Source: a virus
Length of the DNA: 63,651 nucleotides
Virus record (IMG/VR): IMGVR_UViG_3300027754_004967
Coordinates: 1-63,651 of that record
Reading direction: 5' to 3' (one strand)
The notes beneath the pieces were generated by a model. The model was not told the origin of the DNA and ran no database searches. It saw only the letters and a list, made by a program, of their open reading frames with translations. Below are positions 3,743-59,041 of this stretch, one piece after another. Positions within the stretch are counted from its first letter, which is position 1, and each line of letters opens with the position of its first letter. Made by a program: the position numbers and the translations under genes.

Positions 3743-4051
3743 ATGCGTAACTTCACGATCTCTGCTTTTGCAGTCGCAGCTCTGGCCCTTGCTGGCTGCC
3801 ATCATGACGATGACAAGGACGACGACACTGTTACCTGCCCTCAGGATACTGCTGGTCAGGACACTGCCGTGACCGATCCGGTTGACACCGCGGACACCAG
3901 CGGTGGCGATACTGCCGATACTTCGACTCCGCAGGATACGGCGTCCCAGGATACCGGGGCTGACACTGGTGCTGGTAGCGACACCGGCGCAACTGATACT
4001 GGCGCTTCCAGCGACACTGGTTCCGGCGGCACCGACACCTCGGCTCCCTAA
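3743..4051 (+). CDS. Asp/Thr-rich lipoprotein (102 aa)
   Basis: The ATG at 3743 follows AAGGAG. Residues 1-18 form a lipoprotein signal peptide ending in the lipobox LALAGC, so the mature protein would be lipid-anchored at Cys19 in the host envelope. An acidic stretch (HHDDDKDDD) follows, and the rest is low-complexity repeats of D-T-A/G/S. This composition is familiar from lipoproteins of marine Myxococcota-like bacteria. Related small lipoproteins occur at 5515 and 10788. Possible roles are receptor masking or exclusion of other phages, which is inference only. Confidence 0.85.
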   Translation: MRNFTISAFAVAALALAGCHHDDDKDDDTVTCPQDTAGQDTAVTDPVDTADTSGGDTADTSTPQDTASQDTGADTGAGSDTGATDTGASSDTGSGGTDTSAP

Positions 4052-5370: not shown

Positions 5371-5444
5371 GCCCCCTTAATTTAATGGTAAAATACCTGT
5401 TTTGTAATCAGGCTTTGTTGGTTCGATTCCGACAGGGGGCACCA
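5371..5444 (+). tRNA. tRNA-Thr(TGT)
   Basis: Acceptor GCCCCCT/AGGGGGC, D-arm ATTT/AAAT, loop TTTGTAA (TGT), T-loop TTCGATT, CCA encoded. It ends the cluster just before a terminator. Confidence 0.95.
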
Positions 5445-5514: not shown

Positions 5515-5862
5515 ATGAAGCTCGCTAATGTCCTACTTCTTCTTCCTCTCCTCACCCTTGCAGCATGCGGCGGAGATGATGACAAGACCAGCACCGTTGA
5601 TACCGCAGCTTGCGGTGAGGGTGATACCAGCTCGGTCGATACTGCTGTGACTGTCACCTGCACCGACGCCACGGGCACCTACGACGTCGGCGCCACGTGG
5701 ACCTGCGAGGATGGCTGCAACTCCTGCTCTTGCCAGGAGGATGGAACGGTCGCTCAGACCGAGATGGCGTGCCCTGATACCGGTGACACGGGCGGTGAGG
5801 TTCCCCCTGACACTGGCTCCTCTGATACGGGTTCCTCTACCGACACCTCCACCGAGGGTTGA
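5515..5862 (+). CDS. Lipoprotein with small Cys-rich VWC/pacifastin-like domain
   Basis: The ATG at 5515 is preceded by AAGGAA at a good distance. Residues 1-17 form a lipoprotein signal with lipobox LAAC, followed by GGDDDK. Residues about 45-86 contain a Cys-rich motif with spacing like von Willebrand C or pacifastin modules (TWTCEDGCNSCSCQEDG). The tail is Asp/Thr/Ser/Gly-rich. The protein should be anchored in the host envelope. It lies only four bases upstream of the cytochrome c peroxidase gene, so the two are probably co-translated and may act together. Its partner and role are unknown. Confidence 0.85.
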   Translation: MKLANVLLLLPLLTLAACGGDDDKTSTVDTAACGEGDTSSVDTAVTVTCTDATGTYDVGATWTCEDGCNSCSCQEDGTVAQTEMACPDTGDTGGEVPPDTGSSDTGSSTDTSTEG

Positions 5863-5866
5863 TAAA

Positions 5867-6856
5867 ATGATCGCGATTCTTTCCCTGCTCATCGCATGCT
5901 CCGATGCCAGCAACGTTGCGGAGCCCGTAAATCCGCAGATCACGGATGCTGTCACGGTTGATCGTACTAAGCTTGGAGCGTTCCAGCCGCTCCCGGAAAA
6001 CTTCTTCATTGCGGGAGCGGAGCCTTCTCCTGATCTGATCTTTCTCGGTCGCCGTCTCTTCTTTGAGACCCAGCTCTCGGCCGACGCCAACATGTCATGC
6101 TCCACCTGTCATAATGTTGCGAAGGACGGCGCTGATGAGCATAAGTTCTCCCCGGGTCACAAGATGACGCCGGCAGGTCGTAACTCTCCGACGGTCTTCA
6201 ACGCAGCAGGACAGGCTTCCCAGTTTTGGGACGGTCGAGCAAAGACGGTCGAGGAGCAGGCACTCGGTCCTATCCTCGCTGCGGGTGAGATGGCGATGCC
6301 GGATGCCGAGACCGTTGCCCGCGTCCTCAAGGAGGATCCCACCTACGTTGTTGAGTTCGCGAAGGCATTCCCGGGTGAGAAGGATCCCCTCACTTTTGAG
6401 AACGTCGGTGTCGCCATCGGTGCCTACGAGCGAACGCTGGTCACACCCTCCAGGTGGGACGCTTTCCTCCAGGGTGACGATGCCGCTCTCACCAACGACG
6501 AGAAGCGGGGCCTCAATACCTTCATGGAGGTCGGTTGCACGGCATGTCATAACGGCACTCTTCTCGGTGGTGCGTCTTTCATGAAGCTCGGTGCTGTGGA
6601 GCCTTGGCCCAACCAGGCAGACCAGGGGCGATTCGGAGTGACGGGACAGGAAACCGATCGGATGGTCTTCAAGGTGTCTTCCCTTCGCAATTCCACTGAG
6701 ACGGCACCCTACTTCCACGATGCATCTTCCGAGAGCCTGGGCGCAGCCGTCTACATGATGGGAAAGCACCAGCTTGGTAAGTCTCTCACCCCTGAGCAGG
6801 TGACTGATATTGTGAGCTTTCTCGGGTCCACAAAGGGAAATCCAGCTTCCTTCTGA
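5867..6856 (+). CDS. Di-heme cytochrome c peroxidase (CcpA/MauG family), lipoprotein form
   Basis: The 329-residue product carries two c-type heme motifs, CSTCH at 78-82 and CTACH at 224-228, and the family segments LFFETQLS, NSPTVFNA, QFWDGRAKTVEEQALGP and APYFHDA. Enzymes of this family reduce hydrogen peroxide with electrons from cytochromes in the periplasm. The N-terminus MIAILSLLIAC has a lipobox ending at Cys11, so it may be membrane-anchored. I chose the ATG at 5867 over an upstream in-frame start because the latter would overlap the lipoprotein gene and give no signal peptide. The length fits the family. A phage-borne copy is highly unusual; maturation would rely on the host heme-attachment machinery. 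Confidence 0.93.
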   Translation: MIAILSLLIACSDASNVAEPVNPQITDAVTVDRTKLGAFQPLPENFFIAGAEPSPDLIFLGRRLFFETQLSADANMSCSTCHNVAKDGADEHKFSPGHKMTPAGRNSPTVFNAAGQASQFWDGRAKTVEEQALGPILAAGEMAMPDAETVARVLKEDPTYVVEFAKAFPGEKDPLTFENVGVAIGAYERTLVTPSRWDAFLQGDDAALTNDEKRGLNTFMEVGCTACHNGTLLGGASFMKLGAVEPWPNQADQGRFGVTGQETDRMVFKVSSLRNSTETAPYFHDASSESLGAAVYMMGKHQLGKSLTPEQVTDIVSFLGSTKGNPASF

Positions 6857-6861
6857 ACTTT

Positions 6862-6948
6862 GGAGACGTGGGTGAGTGGCTCAAACCAGTCCCTTGCTAA
6901 GGGACCACCGGCGAAAGTTGGTCGCAGGTTCGAATCCTGCCGTCTCCG
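6862..6948 (+). tRNA. tRNA-Ser(GCT)
   Basis: Acceptor GGAGACG/CGTCTCC, anticodon stem GTCCC/GGGAC, loop TTGCTAA (GCT), long variable arm, T-arm GCAGG/CCTGC. CCA is not encoded (GTA follows), unlike most tRNAs of the window, so the host would have to add it. It begins five bases after the peroxidase stop codon. Confidence 0.94.
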
Positions 6949-6979
6949 TACTAACGGCTCCTGATCAGAGATCGTATAC

Positions 6980-7010
6980 ACGGGACCATGCTCGCATGGC
7001 GAAATCCCGT
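6980..7010 (+). other. Stable two-part hairpin, no gene
   Basis: ACGGGA 6980-6985 pairs with TCCCGT 7005-7010 and encloses CCATG-CTCG-CATGG. It lies in the non-coding stretch between tRNA-Ser and the terminator at 7035 and may belong to the same transcript. The function is unknown. Confidence 0.3.
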
Positions 7011-7034
7011 CCAAATCGTAGGTTGGCACAGTTC

Positions 7035-7071
7035 GCGGCTCTGGAGGTATTCCAAAAGCCGCTTTTCTTTT
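7035..7071 (+). terminator. Probable intrinsic terminator
   Basis: GCGGCT (7035-7040) pairs with AGCCGC (7057-7062), with an inner TGGA/TCCA pairing, followed by TTTTCTTTT. It separates the tRNA-Ser transcript from the gene at 7109. Confidence 0.65.
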
Positions 7072-7108
7072 ATCTGATACAGACTTAACGGCATCAGGAC
7101 AAGAACAA

Positions 7109-7408
7109 ATGGCAATTCACATATCAGAAATCAAGCTCCGCCAGATCATCAAAGAAGAATTGTTTCGTGAGTCGAAGGATAACGACCCTCCGGCTGAAAT
7201 TTCTTACGAAGTTGAGGTCCCGCACCGGCCGCATGATCATGATGAGGAGATCGCTGATGCTATCCAGAAAGCTCAGACGAAAGCTATCGACGATCACAGC
7301 GCGAGATATGATATAAGCGATGATCACGGTGATGGATATAAGAAACTTGGGAAGACAAAGGGCGGAAAAATTCGATACAAGGTCTACTTGTCCCATATCA
7401 AGAGGTAG
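7109..7408 (+). CDS. Hypothetical protein with N-terminal LRQIIKEEL motif
   Basis: This 99-residue acidic protein begins with an amphipathic helix containing LRQIIKEEL at residues 10-18. Variants of this motif recur at the N-termini of the proteins at 7421, 14086 and 9567 (minus strand). The I-K-E portion matches the (L/I)-X-E cleavage rule of T4-type prohead proteases, so the helix could be a capsid-targeting propeptide; this is inference. The rest contains His/Asp-rich stretches (HRPHDHDEE) and no known domain. It sits 12 bases upstream of the kinase gene, probably in one operon. Confidence 0.75.
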   Translation: MAIHISEIKLRQIIKEELFRESKDNDPPAEISYEVEVPHRPHDHDEEIADAIQKAQTKAIDDHSARYDISDDHGDGYKKLGKTKGGKIRYKVYLSHIKR

Positions 7409-7420
7409 CAGGAGAAAATT

Positions 7421-7993
7421 ATGAGCTCTACACCGACTCTCCTTCGCCAGCTTATTCGTGAGAGCATCTCTCGACCCAAAATTTACGTTCTTGTCGGACC
7501 TCCCGGAGTCGGAAAGTCGCACTGGGTTCGACAGAACGTGCGTGACGCTTATATCATCAGCAGGGATGACATTGTTGATGCAGTTCGAGCTCCTCACGGA
7601 ATCAAATACAATGACACGTTTGGCCCAGCGGGTCGTCACATCTCAAAGGAAGTTGATAGAGAATTTCGTAATCGTGTCGCGGGAGCAGCCCAGTCGGGTC
7701 AGGATATAGTCGTTGACATGACAAATATGGGGGTCGGTTCCAGAAAGAGCGCTCTGAAAGCCATTGCGGGACGTGAGAGAGAATATGAGAAGATTGCTGT
7801 CTTCTTTGACTATCGCGGGATGGAGAGCAAAGTGCAACGATCGGTCGATCTCCGTGCTGCAGAGCTCCAGGACAAAAACTTGAGCCCTGCAATCATGCAA
7901 AGCATGTTTAATCGTCTGGAACTACCGACACGAGAAGAGGGTTTCGATGATATTATTGTCGTTGACCCGTCAGAGACATTAAATCGTCCCTAG
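7421..7993 (+). CDS. P-loop kinase (AAA_33/polynucleotide kinase-like)
   Basis: The ATG at 7421 follows AGGAG. After an N-terminal LRQLIRES helix (residues 8-15), a Walker A motif GPPGVGKS lies at about 27-34 and a Walker B-like VVDMTN at about 97-102. The SRDD segment at about 49 resembles T4 PseT-type kinases. The 190-residue length fits a stand-alone kinase domain phosphorylating a nucleic acid 5' end or a small molecule. The substrate cannot be told from sequence. The stop codon begins a hairpin that also covers the next gene's ribosome binding site. Confidence 0.82.
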   Translation: MSSTPTLLRQLIRESISRPKIYVLVGPPGVGKSHWVRQNVRDAYIISRDDIVDAVRAPHGIKYNDTFGPAGRHISKEVDREFRNRVAGAAQSGQDIVVDMTNMGVGSRKSALKAIAGREREYEKIAVFFDYRGMESKVQRSVDLRAAELQDKNLSPAIMQSMFNRLELPTREEGFDDIIVVDPSETLNRP

Positions 7994-8022: not shown

Positions 8023-9204
8023 ATGAACAGAATCCCACGTTTACTACTTTTCGCCCTTCTGCTGCCACTCGAGAACGGCTGCATGGATTCTGAGCTTCAT
8101 CCGGTTAAAGATCCGCCTCCGGATGGGACGCCTGCGATCCAGGTCGACCCGGAGTCAATTGACTTTGGGATCGTTCCAGCGGGTGAGAGCTCAGCTAGCA
8201 TCATAACGATGTCATCGGTGGGTTCTGTCGCTCTCAATGTGACAGCGATGCAGATAGGAGAGGGACGAGAGACGTTCACGCTCCTTGAGCCATTGACGGG
8301 AACATATGAGCCTGATGATTCTGTTGAGCTAACGATCACTTACAATTCAGATGGGAGTGAAACAAGCGGTGTCCTTCAAATCCTTTCTAACGATCCTAGC
8401 CATCCTAATACTAGTGTGCCTCTGCTAGCTCACGCAGAGATCAATGTCGATACGGGAGAGACAGGCGATACTGCACCGCCACTTTCGCAACCCGTTGCAG
8501 TCTGCTCCGTTGATCCGATTGAGGTGGAGGCGATTCACGGATCAGCCGATTGGGTCGGAAATTCTTCATACGATTCAGATGGTTCAATCGTTGATTATCG
8601 CTGGACGTTGATCTCGTCACCAGCGGGTGCAACAGCAACAACGCCAGCTGGAACTGCGAATCGTCGTAACTTTGTTCCTGATGTCGCTGGAGAATACATC
8701 GGAGAGCTTGTAGTGGTCGACAACGATGGCCTAGAGTCGGAGCCGTGTCAGGCGACCTTGAACGCCACCGCTGGTAGCGGTCTCTGGATCGAGATGTTCT
8801 GGACCTACTCGGGAGATGACATGGACCTTCACCTCCTGGATGACGGTGGGGTCCTGACGGGAACATCCGACTGCTATTACGCGAACTGCACCTGGGGCGG
8901 ACTTAACTGGGGCGCCGCAGGCACTGCTGACAACCCCGTTCTCGATCTCGATGACATCATGGGAACTGGTCCCGAGAACATCAACATCGACTCACCGGCA
9001 CGAGGGACCTACACGGTCTACGTGCACGACTACCCAGGTTCCGTCTACATGGGTCAGAACGACGTTACGGTGAGTGTGTATCTTGGAGGCTCTCTCATCT
9101 GGACTGACACTAGAAACGTCAACTCGGAAGGTTGCTATGAGCCGTTTGTTGAAGTCAACGTTCCTGGAGGGGCTACGACCGATCTTTACGGCAGCTGTAG
9201 ATGA
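8023..9204 (+). CDS. Large lipoprotein with ASH-like, PKD-like and C-terminal beta domains
   Basis: Residues 1-20 form a lipoprotein signal ending in a lipobox-like LENGC. About 40-135 resembles an ASH/choice-of-anchor-D immunoglobulin fold (IDFGIVPAGESS, then LQILSNDPSHPNTSVPL). A DTGETGDT linker follows. About 150-250 resembles a PKD domain (YDSDGSIVDYRW). The C-terminal part (about 255-393) has GDDMDLHLLDD and TYTVYVHDYPG, like a DUF2135/YfaP-type module, with paired cysteines. This architecture is typical of cell-surface lipoproteins of Myxococcota-like bacteria and suggests capture from the host. It probably sits on the host outer membrane. The function could be receptor masking, adhesion or cell-cell contact; none is shown. 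Confidence 0.88.
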   Translation: MNRIPRLLLFALLLPLENGCMDSELHPVKDPPPDGTPAIQVDPESIDFGIVPAGESSASIITMSSVGSVALNVTAMQIGEGRETFTLLEPLTGTYEPDDSVELTITYNSDGSETSGVLQILSNDPSHPNTSVPLLAHAEINVDTGETGDTAPPLSQPVAVCSVDPIEVEAIHGSADWVGNSSYDSDGSIVDYRWTLISSPAGATATTPAGTANRRNFVPDVAGEYIGELVVVDNDGLESEPCQATLNATAGSGLWIEMFWTYSGDDMDLHLLDDGGVLTGTSDCYYANCTWGGLNWGAAGTADNPVLDLDDIMGTGPENINIDSPARGTYTVYVHDYPGSVYMGQNDVTVSVYLGGSLIWTDTRNVNSEGCYEPFVEVNVPGGATTDLYGSCR

Positions 9205-9574: not shown

Positions 9575-10601
9575 AGTGACCTAGATCAGCCAGAACAAGC
9601 TCACCTGTCTCCGGCCTTAGCATGATGTTGTTTCCGTGAACGTCAGACGGATTGATGTTCATTGACTTTAGATCCTCAAGTGCGCTCACGAGTTCCCGGA
9701 CTCCCTTGATTCTTCCAAGCGGTCCAGGGACTTCTTTCGTCGGCTCTTTCGGAACCGCTCGACGTCCGAGCAAGCTCGTTATTGAGCTCATTATCATCTG
9801 ATTCAACGACTGTATTGAACCAGGTCTGGTGATTCCAAGCGCGCGGCACCAGAGCTCAACTTTCTTTCCAATCGCCGATCTTAGTCCGTCAATGGCCGAG
9901 AGCATTATTCCACTACCTTGATCTGTTACCTCAGGGTCATAAGATGCGGAGACCAGCATTTTCTTAAGTCTGCTGAATTCTTCGGCTGGGTCTGATTTTC
10001 TTGGAGCACCGGCAATCGCTGCGTCGACCGCGCGCTTCGATCTGCTCATTGCCTCATCAACGACTGCTGAGAAAGCTTCACGATCGCTAACAAGAGAGCC
10101 TAAAGAGTGGATGGATCGAGTCGCTGGCTGGGTAATGAGATCGAACATATTTCCCGGTAGCTCCTCGAGTCTCTCCATGACAATGACACCCAGATTCTCT
10201 GGACTTCCAAAGTCATCAGTTGGAAGCGGAACTCCCAGGTCCTCTAGCGTTCTGATCTTATAGATCACTGGCATATGGCGAGCAACCCGGTCTGGTAGTC
10301 TGACAATCGCTTGCTGGGCGCGTTTGTAGCTCTCGATCTCATTCAGGGGCTGAATCTTAAGAATTACGTTTTCATTTCTCTCGTCGACGGCTGAGAATGT
10401 GTAAGCTCCGTACAGCCTCTTGGATCTTGACAGGTATCGAACGTCGGCCAATCCCATCTCTTCTGCGACATCTTTGGCCACACTTTCCATCTTCGCTCGT
10501 CTCTGCACAAACGGATCTGCTGGGACATGGTGGGCTGGTAGTGGCGCGGTGGCGTCCGATTCCAGCATCAAGCGTATCAGCTTTCTTAGGTTTCCGTTCA
10601 T
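9567..10601 (-). CDS. Protein-kinase-fold protein
   Basis: The gene lies alone on the minus strand. The 344-residue product has a possible ATP-binding Lys82 (VILKIQP), a hinge-like VIVMERLEEL around 145-154, and, at the extreme C-terminus, SDVHGNNIML (Asp320, Asn325) followed by LADLG (Asp339), matching the catalytic and metal-binding loops of RIO/ABC1/phosphotransferase kinases. The N-terminus LRKLIRLMLES carries the recurrent tag. I chose the ATG at 10601; a TTG seven codons upstream is possible. It may phosphorylate host proteins or small molecules. The placing of the catalytic loop so close to the C-terminus suggests a reduced C-lobe. Confidence 0.82.
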   Translation of the reverse strand: MNGNLRKLIRLMLESDATAPLPAHHVPADPFVQRRAKMESVAKDVAEEMGLADVRYLSRSKRLYGAYTFSAVDERNENVILKIQPLNEIESYKRAQQAIVRLPDRVARHMPVIYKIRTLEDLGVPLPTDDFGSPENLGVIVMERLEELPGNMFDLITQPATRSIHSLGSLVSDREAFSAVVDEAMSRSKRAVDAAIAGAPRKSDPAEEFSRLKKMLVSASYDPEVTDQGSGIMLSAIDGLRSAIGKKVELWCRALGITRPGSIQSLNQMIMSSITSLLGRRAVPKEPTKEVPGPLGRIKGVRELVSALEDLKSMNINPSDVHGNNIMLRPETGELVLADLGHFT

Positions 10602-10616
10602 CTTGTTAAATATTCG

Positions 10617-10645
10617 TTGCAAATTGAACTCGTCACCAGTATAGT
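10617..10645 (+). promoter_or_regulatory. Sigma70-like promoter for tRNA-Leu(TAA)
   Basis: TTGCAA (10617-10622) and TATAGT (10640-10645) are 17 bases apart, and the tRNA begins 11 bases after the -10 box. It matches the promoter at 1395 closely. It also overlaps the 5' end region of the divergent kinase-fold gene. Confidence 0.55.
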
Positions 10646-10655
10646 CTTTCTGTTG

Positions 10656-10731
10656 GCCCCGGTAGACCAGCGGCAGAGTCAGGAGACTTAAAATCTCTGT
10701 AGGGCGGGTTCGAATCCCGCCCGGGGCACCA
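10656..10731 (+). tRNA. tRNA-Leu(TAA), class I shape
   Basis: Acceptor GCCCCGG/CCGGGGC, anticodon stem GGAGA/TCTCT with loop CTTAAAA (anticodon TAA, UUA codon), T-arm GCGGG/CCCGC, CCA encoded. The variable loop is only about five bases, whereas bacterial tRNA-Leu normally has a long variable arm as in the Leu(TAG) at 4396. Confidence 0.88.
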
Positions 10732-10787
10732 CTCTGTTTATAGTCTCAGTAAAAGAGTTAAAATTAACGTCTCAAAGGAGAAGCACA

Positions 10788-10895
10788 ATGAAGTTCGTCA
10801 TTCTTGCAGTTCTCGGTTCTCTCTTCCTCGGTGGTTGCACCGGTGGTAAGGACGATACCGGCACTGATACGAGCTCTGCCACTACGGCCGAGTGA
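10788..10895 (+). CDS. Tiny Asp/Thr-rich lipoprotein (35 aa)
   Basis: The ATG at 10788 is preceded by AAAGGAG. The peptide has a hydrophobic signal and the lipobox FLGGC, then TGGKDDTGTDTSS, so about 18 mature residues would be displayed on a lipid anchor. It resembles a shortened version of the lipoproteins at 3743 and 5515. A terminator follows directly, so it forms a transcription unit with the tRNA-Leu upstream. Confidence 0.75.
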   Translation: MKFVILAVLGSLFLGGCTGGKDDTGTDTSSATTAE

Positions 10896-10917
10896 TCCTA
10901 AAGCTCAAAATAGAGCG

Positions 10918-10946
10918 ACGGCTGGCACTGGTTGCCAGCCGTTTTC
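10918..10946 (+). terminator. Intrinsic terminator
   Basis: ACGGCTGGCA (10918-10927) pairs perfectly with TGCCAGCCGT (10933-10942) around loop CTGGT, followed by TTTTC. It closes the tRNA-Leu/lipoprotein unit. Confidence 0.82.
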
Positions 10947-10971
10947 ATATTTACGAGCGGAGAAAATTAGC

Positions 10972-11568
10972 ATGCTAACTGCAATTGGCGACGTGATGAG
11001 GAAGTGCTACGATCGTGGATGGATCACAAATCGTGACGGAAATATCTCACTGTGTCGTAATAACTCGAAGACTCTGTACATCACGCCTTCAGGCTGGAGG
11101 AAGACTATCATCCACCCAGAGCATATCGTGAAGTGCAAGCTTGTCGATGACGGCGTAATCGCTCCTTCCGGACAAACCGCAAGCGGTGAGCTTCATATGC
11201 ACTGGCTCATTCAGAAGGATTTCACAAAAACCCGCGCCGTCGTTCATGTTCACGCGACCCATGTGGTTGCAGCAATGTTTGCAGGTTGGGACCTTCAGGA
11301 GCTCGCCAGACAGTTTCCAGAAGTGAACCGGTACACCCGAGTAGGGCCTAACGTACCTGCCCTGCCGGCAACATCACGTGAACTGGGCGATATGACTGGG
11401 GTGCATCTGGGGTGCCTACCGGACGGGTCGCTCCAGTATGATATCGTAGGGCAAGCGAATCACGGGGTCTGCGCAGTCGCTGGTGATCCGTGGTCAGCTT
11501 TTGAGCACGTTGAGCGTCTCGATCACATCTGCGAGATTGTGCTAAAAAGTGGCGTGAAGCCGAAATAA
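10972..11568 (+). CDS. Class II aldolase/adducin-family protein
   Basis: The 198-residue product begins at the ATG at 10972 with GGAG about 9 bases upstream; the longer in-frame extension would read through the terminator. Family marks are NRDGNIS (about 22-28), ITPSGW (about 40), SGELHMH (about 77) and the zinc-binding VVHVHATH (about 95-102). Members cleave or isomerise sugar phosphates (fuculose-, ribulose- or methylthioribulose-phosphate type). The length is slightly short but complete. It could feed the sugar pathways encoded after 29 kb, though it lies far from them. The substrate cannot be assigned. Confidence 0.87.
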   Translation: MLTAIGDVMRKCYDRGWITNRDGNISLCRNNSKTLYITPSGWRKTIIHPEHIVKCKLVDDGVIAPSGQTASGELHMHWLIQKDFTKTRAVVHVHATHVVAAMFAGWDLQELARQFPEVNRYTRVGPNVPALPATSRELGDMTGVHLGCLPDGSLQYDIVGQANHGVCAVAGDPWSAFEHVERLDHICEIVLKSGVKPK

Positions 11569-14450: not shown

Positions 14451-16079
14451 ATGATTTCGTACGAGAGCTTCTTCCCGTTTGGCGCAATCCGTGACCAGCA
14501 GCGTGAGGCGATCGAGTTCGCTCTCAGCGAGTTTGAGAGCGGAAAGAGGTTCGTTATTGTCGAGGCAGGGACCGGTGTCGGCAAATCCGCCATCGGTGTC
14601 TGCATCTCTCGAGCTCTTTCGAACTGGCTTCCCCATCAGGAGGACTACAAGCGAGGGTCTTACTTCCTCACGACCCAGAAGATCCTGCAGGAGCAGTACC
14701 TTGATGACTTCGGCGGTTGCAAGGGCCCGATGACCTCGATTAAGTCGAGTTCGAACTACCAGTGCAAGTACCACAAGAAGCAGTCTTGTGGTGAGTCGCA
14801 GCGGCTTCTCAAGCTCGAGCAGGACAAGACCTCCAAGTTTTTCCGTACCTGCTCGTTCAGCTGCAATTACAAGGAAGCAAAGGGAAAGTTCATGGAATCT
14901 CCGGAGTCCATCACTAACTTCTCCTACTTCATGGCTGAAACGACCTACGCGGGCAAGCTTCTTCCCCGTGATGTTCTTGTTATCGATGAGGCTCACAACT
15001 CAGATTCCGAGCTCAGCAAGTTTATCGAGGTCTCAGTTTCTGAGAAGTTTGCCCAGACTGTTCTGAACCTCCAGATGCCGAAGACTCTCAACAGCGAGCG
15101 AGCTGCATTCGACTGGATCAAAAACGTCTACATCACGAAGCTCACCTCTCATCTAAAGCATATCGAGGCGATGTTCGAGCAGCATGCTGGTCTTCGTGAG
15201 AAGGTGAAGGAGTTCGACGCTCTATCGCGTCAGATTGAGATGCTTGACAAGCACATGTGCAAGGTGAATCGATTCATCGATCTTTTCGATGAGGACAACT
15301 GGGTCTTTAACATCACCGAGACTGAAGATCGAAAGACCCGTCGGCTCGAGTTCAAGCCCATCGATATCTCTCCGTACTCGGAGCAGTCGCTGTTCAAGTT
15401 CGGTCGAAAGGTTCTCATGCTCTCCGCCACGATCCTCAATCAGCGTGCATTCTGTGAAAGTCTCGGCATTCCACTCGAGCAGACGGCTTTCATCAGCCTT
15501 CCGTCTCCCTTCCCGGTTGAGAATCGACCCGTTCTCGTGAGCTCGATCGGTAAGATGAGTGCTGCGGAGATTGACAACACTCTTCCGAAGCTTGCCGAGG
15601 CGGTCCGGCAGATCCTCGCCGCTCACCCGAACGAGAAGGGCATCATCCACTGCCATTCTTACAAGGTGTCCAGCTACATCATGAAGAACATCAGGAGTAA
15701 GCGTCTCTTGACTCACAAGTCCGAGGATCGTGAGGATGTTCTCAACCAGCACATCAGCAGCAAGGAGCCGACGGTTCTCGTAACCCCATCGATGACTGAA
15801 GGAGTTGACCTCAAGGGAGACCTAAGTCGATTCCAGATCATCTGTAAGGTGCCGTATCCTTACCTTGGTGACAAGCTGGTCCAGAAGCGCATGCGAAAGT
15901 GGAGCTGGTGGTACCCTCTTCAGACTGCAAAGACCATCATCCAATCACTCGGTCGTTCAATCCGCTCTGCAGATGATCATGCAATCTCCTATATCTTGGA
16001 CTCTGATTGGGATAGATTTTACGGACAGCAGCGGGACATGTTTCCTGAGTCGTTCCGCGAGTCTATTCACAAAACTTAG
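14451..16079 (+). CDS. DinG/XPD-family superfamily 2 helicase
   Basis: The 542-residue protein has Walker A EAGTGVGKS (about 38-46), a DEAH box VIDEAHN (about 178-184), TPSMTEGVDL (motif V-like, about 444-453) and QSLGRSIRS (motif VI, about 502-510). Cysteines between motifs I and II (CKYHKKQSC then CSFSC, about 105-145) match the iron-sulphur cluster of DinG/Rad3 helicases. It would unwind DNA 5' to 3' or remove DNA-RNA hybrids during phage replication or repair. It starts at ATG 14451 after TGAGGAC. A TACAAT element at 14418 could serve as the -10. Confidence 0.9.
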   Translation: MISYESFFPFGAIRDQQREAIEFALSEFESGKRFVIVEAGTGVGKSAIGVCISRALSNWLPHQEDYKRGSYFLTTQKILQEQYLDDFGGCKGPMTSIKSSSNYQCKYHKKQSCGESQRLLKLEQDKTSKFFRTCSFSCNYKEAKGKFMESPESITNFSYFMAETTYAGKLLPRDVLVIDEAHNSDSELSKFIEVSVSEKFAQTVLNLQMPKTLNSERAAFDWIKNVYITKLTSHLKHIEAMFEQHAGLREKVKEFDALSRQIEMLDKHMCKVNRFIDLFDEDNWVFNITETEDRKTRRLEFKPIDISPYSEQSLFKFGRKVLMLSATILNQRAFCESLGIPLEQTAFISLPSPFPVENRPVLVSSIGKMSAAEIDNTLPKLAEAVRQILAAHPNEKGIIHCHSYKVSSYIMKNIRSKRLLTHKSEDREDVLNQHISSKEPTVLVTPSMTEGVDLKGDLSRFQIICKVPYPYLGDKLVQKRMRKWSWWYPLQTAKTIIQSLGRSIRSADDHAISYILDSDWDRFYGQQRDMFPESFRESIHKT

Positions 16080-17589: not shown

Positions 17590-18822
17590 ATGAGTACAAT
17601 TCAAACGATGAAGCGCAGACTCACAAAAAATCCCGAAAACAGCCAAAAGCTCTGGAGATCTTTTGCTTCTGATCTTCTTAGAAAGTTAAAAGAAAGAAGT
17701 ATTTTCGTAAATCTTGGAGATTCTTCAATCTCTCTTTGCGAATGTGAGAGTATTAGAGCTATTTCAGAAACTGTTCCTGAGTCTCCCACCAGGAACCTCC
17801 TTCTAAAATGCTTGCTTGACGCTGAGCAGCAAAGCGCTGGTGGTTCTTTTGTTGCTCTTTCTGAGATCGCTAGATCAAAAAACTTAGATCTGGACTTTGG
17901 TCATAGGTTCAGTGTGGATGATCTTAGGAAGAGTCTGCTGTCTCTATCTGACCAAATAGTCTCTGACATTGTGGTTGATTCAATTTCGATAGCTGGGAGA
18001 AACGGAAAGATCGTCTTAGACTCTAGTGACGTTCAAAAGACAGAGATCACCTACGGAACGCAATCATGTCGATGGCATCCACCGTCAGATTTTTTTGCAG
18101 CTGCGGGTCAATCTAAAATTGCAGTCCAGAATTGCAAAATAGTCTTTATCGATGGAATCATTGAAAGCGTCTCAGAGTGTCATAGGATATTTCAAGACTC
18201 TTACGACAAAAAAATTCCCGTTGTTATCTTCGCAAGAGGATTTAACGAAGAGGTCATCGCGACCTCAGCCGTCAACATCAAGAGACAGACGGCACGAGTG
18301 GTTCCTGTGGTGATTCCATTCGATGAAGTTGGAGTGAATGGGATGGCAGATCTTGCGAATTGCTTTGGCGCGGAACCTGTATCGGCGGACAAAGGACAGC
18401 TTATCTCATCGGTTGATCTAGATTCCTGCGTTGCTGCTGATCAAATTGTCTGTAACTTGTCATCTACTGAGATTGAGTTTAAAGAGAATAGAGTTTCTAA
18501 CGTTGTTTCTAGATTAGCATCAAAATTATCAAGCTGCGATCAAGATCAGTCAGATCTCATCCGGCGTCGTCTTGGCGCACTTGGTTCTGGTCTCGTAACA
18601 ATAAAGATCGGTGCTGACAAGAAGTCACTTTCCGGTATTCAAAGAGATCGTGTTGATTTTGGACTTCGATACGCAAAATCGTGCATGTCTTCCGGCGTAG
18701 TTAATTACTCCGGCACGCTTCTTCCATTCTCAGCTTTAAAAGCTGGAACATCGAGCTCTAAATCTTTCATTTCTATTCTGACCAAGTGTAGCACCATTTT
18801 GGAGGTTGACAAATGTGGTTAG
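17590..18822 (+). CDS. Shortened GroEL-like chaperonin
   Basis: Residues about 180-275 resemble a GroEL apical domain (KIVFIDGIIESVSECHRIF, KIPVVIFARGFNEE, ARVVPVVIPFDEVG). Residues about 325-380 resemble the intermediate/equatorial return strand (DLIRRRLGALGSGLVTIKIG, then DRVDFGLRYAKSCMSSGVV, like the RVEDALHATRAAVEEGVV segment of GroEL). The first roughly 150 residues do not show the usual ATP-binding GDGTTT motif, and the protein is 410 rather than about 545 residues. It may be an ATP-independent or host-GroEL-binding derivative that helps fold virion proteins. The next gene overlaps its 3' end by 10 bases. Confidence 0.75.
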   Translation: MSTIQTMKRRLTKNPENSQKLWRSFASDLLRKLKERSIFVNLGDSSISLCECESIRAISETVPESPTRNLLLKCLLDAEQQSAGGSFVALSEIARSKNLDLDFGHRFSVDDLRKSLLSLSDQIVSDIVVDSISIAGRNGKIVLDSSDVQKTEITYGTQSCRWHPPSDFFAAAGQSKIAVQNCKIVFIDGIIESVSECHRIFQDSYDKKIPVVIFARGFNEEVIATSAVNIKRQTARVVPVVIPFDEVGVNGMADLANCFGAEPVSADKGQLISSVDLDSCVAADQIVCNLSSTEIEFKENRVSNVVSRLASKLSSCDQDQSDLIRRRLGALGSGLVTIKIGADKKSLSGIQRDRVDFGLRYAKSCMSSGVVNYSGTLLPFSALKAGTSSSKSFISILTKCSTILEVDKCG

Positions 18823-29302: not shown

Positions 29303-29311
29303 TGCTATAAT
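29303..29311 (+). promoter_or_regulatory. Extended -10 promoter for the glycan island
   Basis: TGC followed by a perfect TATAAT (29306-29311) lies just after the terminator. The -35 region is weak. If used, the +1 would fall at about 29318, almost at the chosen ATG, so the transcript would be leaderless or the true start codon lies further in. Confidence 0.4.
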
Positions 29312-43061: not shown

Positions 43062-44013
43062 GAAGAAGATACTGATTTGCGGCGCGACTGGGTTTATTGG
43101 AAGAAATCTGCTTGATTTCTATTATAAGCAGGGAAAGTACAACATAAGAGCCACTCACTTTCGCAGACCTGCAGTTGAAGGTTACGATGGGGTCGAGTGG
43201 ATCAACTGCGATCTAAGAAATCCTGAACACGTTTCAAGCGCTCTGTCTGGAGTTGATATTGTTCTGCAGTTTGCAGCTACCACAACGGGAGCGAGGGACA
43301 TCGTCTCAAAGCCCTACATACACGTAACAGACAACGCTGTTATGAACTCTCTTCTTCTTAGGGAAGCATTCGAGAAGAAGATCGAGCATTTTGTGTTCCC
43401 TAGCTGCACTATCATGTATCAGAAGTCTGAAACTGCGATAAAGGAAGATGACTTCAATCCTTCCGACGAAATTCTTCCGTTCTATTTCGGAGCAGGAAAC
43501 ACGAAAGTTTATCTTGAGAAGATGTGCGAGTTTTACTCACGAATTGGGTCGACAAAGCACACCGTCATTCGTCACTCCAACATGTACGGTCCTCATGACA
43601 AGTATGATCTTGAGAAGTCACATGTGTTTGGAGCAACGGTGACCAAGGTCATGACGTCTGCGGATGGCAAGATTAACGTTTGGGGGACTGGCGAGGAAGC
43701 TCGGGATCTTCTTTTTGTTGAAGATCTTGTTGGATTTGTCAATGATGCAATTGACAAGCAGGAGAGCAAGTTCGAGCTGTTTAACGTTGGCTTGGGAGAA
43801 GGGATCAAGATAAAGGATCTCGTTCGAAAGATTGTCGATCACTCAGGCCGAGACCTTCAGATTGTTCACGATCTGTCACAGCCCACGATACCTACCTCTC
43901 TTTTCCTCGATTGCTCTAAAGCTAAGAGAGTACTTGGCTGGTCTCCGTCTCATTCTCTTGATGAGGGTATCATCAAAACGTTGCTGTGGTATAGGAAGAA
44001 TGTGGCACGCTGA
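43048..44013 (+). CDS. Extended SDR, NAD-dependent sugar epimerase/reductase
   Basis: The 321-residue protein has CGATGFIGRN (about 10-19), VFPSCTIMYQ (about 113) and RHSNMYGPHDKYD (about 173). Around the catalytic site it reads YFGAGNTKVYLEKMCEFYS, a spacing seen in a GDP-fucose-synthase-like group rather than the classic YxxxK. It probably acts on a GDP- or UDP-keto sugar. It overlaps the SDR gene upstream and the PhyH gene downstream. Confidence 0.83.
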   Translation: MVENKKKILICGATGFIGRNLLDFYYKQGKYNIRATHFRRPAVEGYDGVEWINCDLRNPEHVSSALSGVDIVLQFAATTTGARDIVSKPYIHVTDNAVMNSLLLREAFEKKIEHFVFPSCTIMYQKSETAIKEDDFNPSDEILPFYFGAGNTKVYLEKMCEFYSRIGSTKHTVIRHSNMYGPHDKYDLEKSHVFGATVTKVMTSADGKINVWGTGEEARDLLFVEDLVGFVNDAIDKQESKFELFNVGLGEGIKIKDLVRKIVDHSGRDLQIVHDLSQPTIPTSLFLDCSKAKRVLGWSPSHSLDEGIIKTLLWYRKNVAR

Positions 44014-44744
44014 TGCAGCTCACTGATTCACAGATCAGCTTCTTTAAAGAAAACGGTTACCTTCATTTGAAGAAGGTCTTTTCAGATGAAGAGTGTCAGG
44101 AAGCCATCGATGCGTCAGAAAAACACGCAAATGGTTTCTACACGAACTATCTTGATATGCACAAGAATGAAGTCTTTAGCAAGATTCATACCGGTAAGAA
44201 GATGTGTGATATCGGAGATAGCATCTTAAAGAATCGAGCGATTCCAATAGGAAGCATCTTTTTCTTCTGCAAGCCTAACAACTCTTTGGAAAACGGTTCA
44301 ACCTGGCATCAGGACAATTACGCCGGTAAAGCTCCGTTCGGATCTTACCTTAATTTAACGCTTTCTCTTGACGACGCTGACGAAGAGAACGGTTCTCTTA
44401 TGATCATACCTGGAAGTCACAAGCTGGGCGATCTGCCGTGTAATCCGAAAGCCAACTTTTCTGTTGACGAATCAGGAAGGCTGTATAATTCAGCTCCGAT
44501 CGGAAACAACTGTGAAATTCCAAAGGATCTCCCCGTTCTTCAGCTAAAATACGAGAAAGGAGACGTTCTCTGCGTGCACGGTCATCTTATCCACAAAGCG
44601 AATAAGAATCAGCATCCGACCCGCTGGCGTCGAACGATGTATTTCGTTTATATCAACGAAGGAGATCCATTCTGGCCTGGATGGACTGCCAAGAGAGAGT
44701 TGCTCGATCGTTACGATTCACCAAATTCATCTAAAATTGTCTGA
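44013..44744 (+). CDS. PhyH-family Fe(II)/2-oxoglutarate dioxygenase
   Basis: The 243-residue protein has FKENGYLHLKKVFSDEE near the start, STWHQDN (about 95-101) with the HxD metal site, and VHGHLIHKANKNQHPTRWR (about 188-206) with the distal His and the Arg that binds 2-oxoglutarate. Members hydroxylate small molecules; here a sugar or lipid-linked glycan is likely. It is the second oxygenase of the island. Confidence 0.88.
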   Translation: MQLTDSQISFFKENGYLHLKKVFSDEECQEAIDASEKHANGFYTNYLDMHKNEVFSKIHTGKKMCDIGDSILKNRAIPIGSIFFFCKPNNSLENGSTWHQDNYAGKAPFGSYLNLTLSLDDADEENGSLMIIPGSHKLGDLPCNPKANFSVDESGRLYNSAPIGNNCEIPKDLPVLQLKYEKGDVLCVHGHLIHKANKNQHPTRWRRTMYFVYINEGDPFWPGWTAKRELLDRYDSPNSSKIV

Positions 44745-56698: not shown

Positions 56699-57199
56699 AT
56701 GTTGAGAGGAACTCCGGTGGCACAAGCAAGATCTTACAGCTTCAACAGTGTCGGAACAAAAAAATCTGACTTTGATGAGCGCAGCAAAGCGGTTGTCACC
56801 GCCCCTCCGATCGGAATTAAGACTCCGCTAGAGCTTGGAAGTACCGAGGATGGAATCTTCAGGATGCATCGTTCTCTTGGGGACCAGATAAGAGACAATC
56901 TAGCGAACTTGATCCTCACTAATCGTAATGAGAGGCTCGGATTTGTGGATTTCGGAGCTAATCTAAAGCCCATTCTACATGAGCTTGCTTCAGAAGACGG
57001 TGACCAGGAAGCAATGAGAAGGATCAGCGCTGCTGTCTCGAAGTATATGCCGTTCGTAATTCTTGAAAATTTTATCGCAACTCCCCAGGATGCTGGGCTA
57101 ACAGCTCTTTCAAAGATAAAATTAGCAATTACTTACTCTGTGCCACGCGCAAACTTGACGCAGCAGACACTATCAATCACATTCAACTTTACGGGATGA
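56699..57199 (+). CDS. Baseplate wedge protein, gp25-like
   Basis: The 166-residue protein shows the GPW/gp25 core: RSLGDQIRDNLANLILTNRN (about 61-80) and ERLGFVDFGANLKPIL (about 81-96), with IAITYSVP-type strands at the end. gp25 helps join the wedge to the sheath-initiating ring. The start could also be the GTG at 56717, which has a better AGAGGA site; the longer form begins at ATG 56699. The next gene follows after three bases. Confidence 0.92.
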   Translation: MLRGTPVAQARSYSFNSVGTKKSDFDERSKAVVTAPPIGIKTPLELGSTEDGIFRMHRSLGDQIRDNLANLILTNRNERLGFVDFGANLKPILHELASEDGDQEAMRRISAAVSKYMPFVILENFIATPQDAGLTALSKIKLAITYSVPRANLTQQTLSITFNFTG

Positions 57200-57202
57200 T
57201 AA

Positions 57203-59041
57203 ATGGCGGGTGACCAGCAGCTTAAGAACTTGAGAAATCGAACGTATCTTAACAAAGATTTCGATTCTTTCAGAGGCGATCTCCTGAGATACGCTAGAAC
57301 GTATTTCGGAGACAAAATACAAGACTTCTCGGAAGCAAGCGTCGGTGGTTTGATGCTCGATATGGCTGCTTCCGTGGCAGACTCGATGTCATTTTATCTC
57401 GATCACCAGTTCAGAGAAATGTCATGGTCGACAGCTGTCGAGAACGCGAACGTTTCAAGGATGATAACTGAAGCTGGAATCAAACCGAAAGGAGCTTCTC
57501 CTTCGGTCGCTACAGTATCGATGTTCGTAGAAGTTCCTTCAAGATTTATCGATGGGGAATACGTCCCAGATGAGGACACTCTTCCTAAAGTTCTCCAGAG
57601 CACGCTTTTGGCGTCATCAGCTGGAATCATATTCTCGACTGCCGAGGACGTCGATTTTGCTGAGAAAAATCGACTTGGTGGGCTTGCGTCGAAATACGTG
57701 GTTGGAAACGTTGACGCATCCGGAAATCCCTCAAGCTTCGTAATGAAGCGTGACGTCTCATGCGTATCCGGAAAGATTGCGATCGAATCTTTCGAGATAG
57801 CAGCAAATCCAGATCCATTTTTCACAATTTCACTTGGAAATTCTGACCCGAGCGAAATTGTGGAGGTCGTTGACTCAGAAGGGAATGTTTACTACGAAGT
57901 TCAAACTTTAAGTCAGGACACCGTTTTTAGAACTTTCCCAAATCTTTCTGTCGATTCCGAAGAAGTTTCCAGATCCATCGAGGTTATTCCGGCTCCAAGA
58001 AGATTTGTTCATAACTTCGATGTGACATCTAGAAAGTCCAAGATACAGTTCGGGGGTGGAACTGCTCTTACCACGGCTGATGATGCGATTCCAGATCCTG
58101 AAACTTTGGCTCTGCCGCTCTACGGAACTTCAACTTTAAGTCGTTTTAGCATCGACCCAAGCTCGCTTCTAAACACGAAAACTTTGGGCGTCAAACCCGA
58201 GAATACTACAATAACAGTGACTTATCGATACGGAGGCGGAGCATCTCATAACGTTGCCGCGCGAACAATTCGTGGAATACAGACGCTTAAGATGGAATTT
58301 CCGGATGCATGTCCTGCGTCGGTCGCTTCCTCCATCAGAACCACGTTCGATGTTAGAAACGATTCGCCTGCTTCAGGAGGCAGCAATGCGCCGACTCTCG
58401 AAGAAATTCGTTCTCAGATTCCTGCCGCTAGAAATCAGCAAGAGAGAATCGTTACAAAAGAGGACCTGATCTCTAGAGTGTACACGCTTCCAACAAAGCT
58501 CGGGAGAGCCTATCGAGCTGCCGTTAGGCCGAATCCAGACAATCCTCTGGCAAGCCAACTCTTCATCTGTTCGAAGGACAGCTCGGGATTCTTAACGGTC
58601 TCTCCTGATACTCTTAAGAAGAACCTACGAGTCTATCTTAATGAGTATAGACTGATCAGCGATGCGATAGACGTTCTTGACGCTAAAGTGATCAACTTCC
58701 GCGTTAAGTTCACTGTTTTCATTTCACCTAACGCCAACAAATCAACCACACTGCAGTCCGTTATTTCGAGACTTACTGGAATTCTGACCGTAAATAACTT
58801 CCAGATCGATCAGCCGATCATGCTATCAGACATGCAGAACGTCATAATCAACACCCCCGGGGTATTGACCCTAGTCGACCTTAAGGTCGAAAGTCTTAGT
58901 GGGGTGATTCAGGAAAGAACGTACTCGAACGTGACTCATAACGTCAAGCAGTACACGAAGCGAGGTGTGGTCTTTGGACCACCCGGAAGTATTTTTGAGC
59001 TTAGATATCCCCAGAATGACATTATCGGGACGGCACTCTGA
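57203..59041 (+). CDS. Baseplate wedge protein, gp6-like (baseplate J)
   Basis: The 612-residue protein opens with LNKDFDSFRGDLLRYARTYF (about 15-34), FSEASVGGLMLDMAASVAD and DHQFREMSW, the recognised N-terminus of T4 gp6-like wedge proteins. Its later region (ERIVTKEDLISRVYTLPTKLG, split, about 417-437) matches the baseplate J core. It forms the inner baseplate ring. It is directly downstream of gp25, the T4 order. Confidence 0.93.
   Translation: MAGDQQLKNLRNRTYLNKDFDSFRGDLLRYARTYFGDKIQDFSEASVGGLMLDMAASVADSMSFYLDHQFREMSWSTAVENANVSRMITEAGIKPKGASPSVATVSMFVEVPSRFIDGEYVPDEDTLPKVLQSTLLASSAGIIFSTAEDVDFAEKNRLGGLASKYVVGNVDASGNPSSFVMKRDVSCVSGKIAIESFEIAANPDPFFTISLGNSDPSEIVEVVDSEGNVYYEVQTLSQDTVFRTFPNLSVDSEEVSRSIEVIPAPRRFVHNFDVTSRKSKIQFGGGTALTTADDAIPDPETLALPLYGTSTLSRFSIDPSSLLNTKTLGVKPENTTITVTYRYGGGASHNVAARTIRGIQTLKMEFPDACPASVASSIRTTFDVRNDSPASGGSNAPTLEEIRSQIPAARNQQERIVTKEDLISRVYTLPTKLGRAYRAAVRPNPDNPLASQLFICSKDSSGFLTVSPDTLKKNLRVYLNEYRLISDAIDVLDAKVINFRVKFTVFISPNANKSTTLQSVISRLTGILTVNNFQIDQPIMLSDMQNVIINTPGVLTLVDLKVESLSGVIQERTYSNVTHNVKQYTKRGVVFGPPGSIFELRYPQNDIIGTAL

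Follow-up and report, generated by a model that had tools for sequence, protein, structure and literature searches.

A large T4-like phage genome carries a gene for a predicted membrane-anchored di-heme cytochrome c peroxidase

The ccp locus and its phage context

The window (the whole stretch of DNA analysed, 63,651 nucleotides of one virus record) carries at 5867–6856, on the plus strand, a gene for a di-heme cytochrome c peroxidase of the CcpA/BCCP type that is predicted to be a lipoprotein. The open reading frame runs from an ATG to a TGA with no internal stop and encodes 329 residues; a Shine-Dalgarno-like GAGGG can be read from the sequence at 5854–5858, 8 nt ahead of the start codon. 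Pfam places CCP_MauG at residues 58–205 (E=5.3e-50) and Cytochrom_C in the C-terminal half (E=5.5e-8). The GC content of the gene, referred to below as ccp and its product as CCP, is 0.58 versus 0.47 for the window.

The gene sits in a tRNA-rich stretch (14 tRNAs at 1.6–12.8 kb), and the features around it, like all those given below for the window, are on the plus strand. It is flanked by tRNA-Thr(tgt) (5371–5444) and, directly at its 3' side, by tRNA-Ser(gct) (6861–6949). An Asp/Thr-rich small lipoprotein of 115 residues is encoded at 5515–5862, stopping 4 nt ahead of the ccp start. Downstream lie a conserved non-coding element (6957–7079), a gene for an AAA/polynucleotide-kinase-like protein (7421–7993), and a gene for a 393-residue lipoprotein with Ig-like/PKD domains (8023–9204).

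Baseplate wedge genes (56699–59041) mark the window as a contractile-tailed phage, which also encodes PhoH and a phage DNA helicase (phrog_2488; 14451–16079). The helicase is 95% identical to that of a second virus record, G001 (171,517 bp), in which 39 of the 73 window ORFs are matched, mostly in colinear order. G001 has a CCP 84% identical to that of the window at the same site: the two records share, in order, the flank formed by tRNA-Thr and the DNA 3' of it (88% DNA identity), ccp (78%), the downstream non-coding element (86%), and the kinase gene. Assembly continuity, for which the sequence-only reading had asked for long reads, is thus backed by an independent contig, G001, in which both flanks of the gene recur. 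G001 encodes a terminase, a portal, a major head protein, two sheath proteins and a head protease, together with a UvsX-like recombinase, a DnaB-like helicase and a DNA polymerase. The 163.9-kb contig G335 is another member of the same phage group; its structural genes follow the same order, and near its end lies a ccp whose product is 58% identical. On this comparative sequence evidence, ccp sits inside a genuine T4-like large phage genome. Three further CCP-bearing contigs (G333, G334, and G336) share few genes with the window and are on that ground placed in another phage group. Their phage hallmarks are thinner: besides the IMG/VR calls, these are a virion structural protein encoded next to the G336 ccp and, in G334, a GroEL of phage type.

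No neighbour accompanies ccp throughout. The PKD/Ig lipoprotein has homologues in G001, G333, and G334 and many in Myxococcota, with identities that reach 53% along almost the whole length, and was rejected as an obligate partner since it occurs in relatives without CCP. An acyl-CoA dehydrogenase of 629–651 residues is encoded 9 bp upstream of ccp in G333 and G334 and downstream of it in G001, with 75% identity between the two phage groups; the best copy among 58 sampled Myxococcota genomes is 60% identical. It is absent from the window contig and was likewise discarded as a fixed partner, being found only in G001, G333, and G334 (in just one by a single-protein scan). The dehydrogenases at 11163–13052 of L002 (the G001 locus), 8036–9991 of L071, and 763–2655 of L072 are VLCAD/ACAD9-like. 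Asp-rich lipoproteins similar to the one just ahead of ccp also occur elsewhere in G001 and in G332. Small Asp/Thr-rich lipoproteins with 'DTGDT' repeats (window 3743–4051 and 5515–5862, L002 5083–5406, L134 4600–4917) resemble the linker of a Myxococcota CCP (locus L003).

The non-coding element, common to three CCP-bearing phages, is about 120 nt long (6957–7079 in the window, 10990–11112 in L002, 5600–5740 in L070) and ends in a GC hairpin and a T-run; its last 60 nt are nearly identical among the three. Around ccp, only tRNAs exceeded the Rfam thresholds and the element gave no match, and its single-sequence folds are no more stable than those of shuffled sequences. It is possibly a phage small RNA.

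Enzyme class and lipoprotein signal

The heme-binding and catalytic residues of a bacterial CCP (bCCP) are all present. The first CxxCH motif (CSTCH, C78–H82; 6098–6112) would bind the peroxidatic heme and the second (CTACH, C224–H228; 6536–6550) the high-potential heme, and both are invariant in the alignment. Counted along the alignment to the Pseudomonas aeruginosa structure 1eb7, His98 (6158–6160) corresponds to His71, the distal ligand of the resting peroxidatic heme, and the invariant Met298 (6758–6760) to Met275, the axial ligand of the high-potential heme. The conserved inter-heme tryptophan, whose role has been described (PMC6405878), is Trp121 (6227–6229), and the distal pocket is formed by Gln131, Pro135, and Glu141, the predicted acid–base catalyst (6257–6289); these four residues are invariant as well, with the same spacing as Q103/P107/E113 and W93 of MauG. 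The pocket is known to be common to CCPs and MauG, and the two differ in the second heme, which is Met-His ligated in bCCPs and Tyr-His ligated in MauG (PMC6405878).

Among solved relatives, the best matches are the CcpA proteins of Pseudomonas nautica, P. aeruginosa, and Neisseria (E ~1e-73), versus E values of 1e-20 to 1e-21 for MauG. Consistently, a Foldseek search gave a TM score of 0.75 to mixed-valence CCPs and of about 0.61 to MauG; the query was an AlphaFold2 model built from 12 sequences (pLDDT 72.7) that contains no heme, so its loops near the heme sites are poor. The protein falls short of the NCBIfam cut-offs for MauG (TIGR03791, 143.9 versus 443.85 bits) and MbnH (TIGR04039, 150.6 versus 362.85 bits), and Met298 occupies the position of the tyrosine that ligates the six-coordinate heme of MauG. 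With a CCP_MauG domain, two CxxCH motifs, a methionine ligand, a Gln/Pro/Glu pocket and an inter-heme tryptophan, it is a CcpA-type peroxidase by all sequence criteria applied. Of the 'MauG/CcpA' assignment proposed earlier, the CcpA half therefore holds in sequence, fold, and heme ligand; the MauG half does not, given the methionine and the missed TIGR03791 cut-off.

The phage CCP shares its fold, both CxxCH motifs, the Gln/Pro/Glu pocket, the inter-heme tryptophan, the distal histidine, and the methionine ligand with the classical bCCPs, namely P. aeruginosa CcpA (1eb7), the P. nautica enzyme (1nml), and Neisseria gonorrhoeae CcpR (6fu3/6qkn). Unlike these, it is phage-encoded and of lipoprotein type, with a very short signal. 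Escherichia coli Ccp (YhjA) is likewise a membrane-associated periplasmic CCP, and the use proposed for it, with H2O2 as a respiratory oxidant, is similar; it is however longer, with an extra N-terminal region and a membrane anchor, and lies far off in the tree. MauG and MbnH belong to the same CCP_MauG superfamily but modify proteins, MauG with a Tyr-ligated heme.

The putative lipoprotein-type signal, MIAILSLLIA-C (5867–5899), has the lipobox LIAC with its cysteine at position 11. Only ten residues precede the cysteine and the very short n-region carries no positive charge. Each of the ten viral CCPs in the two clades described below has an Ala-Cys lipobox within the first dozen residues of a leader that is otherwise variable, which agrees with the lipoprotein signal first noted in the window alone. 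Signals of the second clade are similarly short and of lipoprotein type. In the Myxococcota locus L003, the leaders of both the CCP and a neighbouring lipoprotein gene are also short and uncharged, so the short leader looks from these sequences like a host-type feature.

Viral clades, ancestry, and selection

A profile scan of IMG/VR with two short patterns, which makes the count a lower bound, detected at least 11 CCP contigs besides the window, or at least 12 viral contigs in all. In a maximum-likelihood tree of 49 proteins, the CCPs of the window, G001, G332, G333, G334, G335, and G336 form one clade (V1; support 100/100), which is nested inside a group of Myxococcota-type lipoprotein CCPs (97/94). 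The sequence-only reading had looked to phylogeny for a bacterial donor, and the tree points to this group. The nearest bacterial relatives (for example JAFGVK010000149.1, locus L003; about 45–56% identity) are also lipoproteins; they differ in being chromosomal and, in some cases, in having a long D/T-rich linker, and the viral sequences sit on a long branch of their own (stem 0.47). G337, G338, and G018 make up a second clade (V2; 100/98) that groups, in this sampling, with a CCP of a Turneriella plasmid. The tree indicates that the two virus clades acquired their CCPs separately.

The distal histidine is kept in all V1 members and absent from V2, where alanine replaces it (loci L075, L076, and L077, from G337, G338, and G018, respectively). 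This histidine is likewise missing from always-active CCPs such as the H93G variant of MacA, and by analogy the V2 enzymes may not need reductive activation. Two more viral contigs, L078 and L079, were left out of the phage clades because their CCPs group with proteobacterial ones, and L079 is in addition prophage- or host-like with 67% GC. In L079 (9120–10948), a gene that by eye is cytochrome b561-like stands directly ahead of ccp; this could be host DNA or the passenger of a prophage.

Judging by gene ancestry, the host of these phages is probably a member of the Myxococcota, to which ccp, the acyl-CoA dehydrogenase and the PKD/Ig lipoprotein all point. A search of 379 Myxococcota genomes for a related phage terminase gave a single match at 32% identity and nothing convincing. 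The GC content of the phages (0.35–0.55) is below what is expected for many Myxococcota.

The viral copies are under purifying selection, with a dN/dS of 0.075 between the CCPs of the window and G001 and of 0.12–0.18 in the other viral pairs with estimable dS. The family match, the two heme motifs, the active site, and the dN/dS of 0.075 are together far beyond chance as sequence evidence, and the initial view of an intact, phage-borne gene for an apparently functional di-heme peroxidase is borne out. Among viral records bearing the helicase, most of which are fragments, ccp occurs in 2 of 47. In a related phage with a 79% identical PKD lipoprotein, the 10 kb upstream of the lipoprotein gene contain no CCP. 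Since most sampled relatives lack it, ccp is not essential; on this distribution it is an accessory gene and not an artefact. Absence from close relatives had been named beforehand as a sign of an artefact, and the gene is indeed missing near the shared lipoprotein gene in one relative, but the pattern is that of an accessory gene and the artefact reading fails.

Two explanations would deny ccp any role in the phage. That a bacterial CCP was joined to phage DNA through chimeric assembly or host contamination could be argued from the raised GC of ccp and from the bacterial nature of its family. We regard this as scarcely credible: the 171.5-kb contig independently repeats both flanks, ten further viral contigs have CCPs, and the viral copies are 56–84% identical to the window CCP, whereas the bacterial copies found reach no more than about 56%. 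A transient passenger gene that does nothing for the phage would fit the patchy presence among the helicase-bearing records and the relative without ccp near the shared lipoprotein gene. It is exceedingly unlikely given the low dN/dS among viral copies, the retention of the listed active-site residues and the lipobox throughout V1, and the existence of two separate viral clades with several members each.

Proposed role of the phage peroxidase

The gene resides in a phage genome, and the tree and dN/dS mark its product as a host-derived enzyme kept under selection, as expected of an auxiliary metabolic gene. We consider it likely that ccp is such a gene: a bCCP derived from a lipoprotein CCP of Myxococcota, captured by the ancestor of a large-phage group and retained by selection for host-powered reduction of periplasmic peroxide. 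During infection, CCP would be exported, anchored, and loaded with heme by the Sec, lipidation, and cytochrome c maturation machineries of the host. Its C-terminal heme would receive single electrons from the quinol chain or a periplasmic cytochrome c of the host and relay them by way of Trp121 to the N-terminal heme, where H2O2 would be reduced to water with Glu141 as acid–base catalyst. Periplasmic peroxide would thereby be removed and respiratory electron flow sustained while phage is produced. Beyond CCP itself, none of the ten phage contigs examined encodes a protein with multiple CxxCH motifs, so the electron donor and heme maturation would have to be supplied by the host, a dependence already proposed for the window on its own.

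In E. coli, Ccp allows H2O2 to be used as a respiratory oxidant, its activity is moderate and does not much lower periplasmic H2O2, and H2O2 readily crosses the outer membrane (PMC8115020). By analogy with this moderate activity, we favour, without strong conviction, electron disposal together with local peroxide removal over pure detoxification. In the relatives with an adjoining acyl-CoA dehydrogenase, the electrons as well as the peroxide would probably come from fatty-acid β-oxidation. β-Oxidation through FadE increases H2O2 formation in E. coli (PMC11495604), which offers a possible reason for the pairing of ccp with the dehydrogenase in some relatives, though not in the window. A more far-reaching and rather doubtful extension is that viruses captured exported CCPs at least twice and paired some of them with the dehydrogenase as a portable redox cassette, which would burn lipids, use or remove envelope H2O2, and add a peroxide-consuming branch to respiration.

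Other functions can be weighed against peroxide respiration. An active peroxidase might instead benefit the phage by defence against external peroxide from sunlit water, competing microbes, or an oxidative response of the host. The predicted membrane anchoring with a periplasm-facing enzyme and the permeability of the outer membrane to H2O2 speak for such a defence, which we find conceivable if somewhat doubtful; the slight effect of E. coli Ccp on periplasmic H2O2 favours the respiratory role (PMC8115020). Oxidation of a tryptophan in a partner, for example a neighbouring phage lipoprotein, by a MauG- or MbnH-like enzyme would draw on the shared superfamily, the sub-threshold NCBIfam matches to both, and the lipoprotein genes that adjoin ccp or stand near it. 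It is very unlikely because the high-potential heme has methionine and not tyrosine as ligand, both scores fall over 200 bits short of the cut-offs, CcpA is nearer in sequence and fold, and no partner gene is kept beside all CCP copies. A surface lipoprotein with a mainly non-redox task, such as blocking superinfection or changing the envelope, is equally improbable; these phages encode other lipoproteins, and some phage lipoproteins act in superinfection exclusion, but such a role would not need the full preservation of heme and catalytic residues.

PHROGs contains no family matching the window CCP, and GenBank phage genomes yielded no true match that would place a CCP in a cultured phage. 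Four matches filed there under phages were set aside, two as bacterial records and two phage-named ones by judgement as host contamination. The bacterial record inspected is a chromosomal contig of Salmonella where torA/D and ccmA–F lie next to ccp; the phage-named one inspected, with a match of about 39%, is 9.6 kb long, has no annotation and is flagged UNVERIFIED. No published description of a phage CCP was found in the searchable open literature. The earlier remark that no gene of this type is commonly described in phages thus agrees with PHROGs, annotated phage genomes, and the literature searched. The large freshwater phages that carry pmoC are comparable in having a host-derived energy-metabolism gene in a large genome, and the main text describing them mentions neither a peroxidase nor a cytochrome (PMC7674155). 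CCPs are an old enzyme family, and host metabolic genes in phages are well known; PHROGs, the annotated phage genomes, and the papers searched yielded no phage-encoded c-type heme peroxidase with predicted membrane anchoring. A working enzyme would add a viral branch to the electron-transport chain of the host envelope while relying on host heme maturation. Its repeated capture in separate viral clades suggests that peroxide or electron disposal in the envelope limits infection in these hosts.

Other gene content of these phages was also recorded. The window contains about 20 sugar-nucleotide, epimerase, aminotransferase, and glycosyltransferase-like genes at 29311–53827, and the middle of this block differs strongly from G001, as if surface-glycan genes had been swapped. 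GroEL-family proteins are encoded in the window (17590–18822; divergent, phrog_5725), in G334 (9681–11300; full-length), and in G337 (43121–44695). Many unrelated phage proteins begin alike, with approximately 'LRxxIREEL', including those at 7109–7408 and 7421–7993 of the window and many ORFs of L070, L075, L076, and L077; this start is reminiscent of a T4-type capsid-targeting or processing tag.
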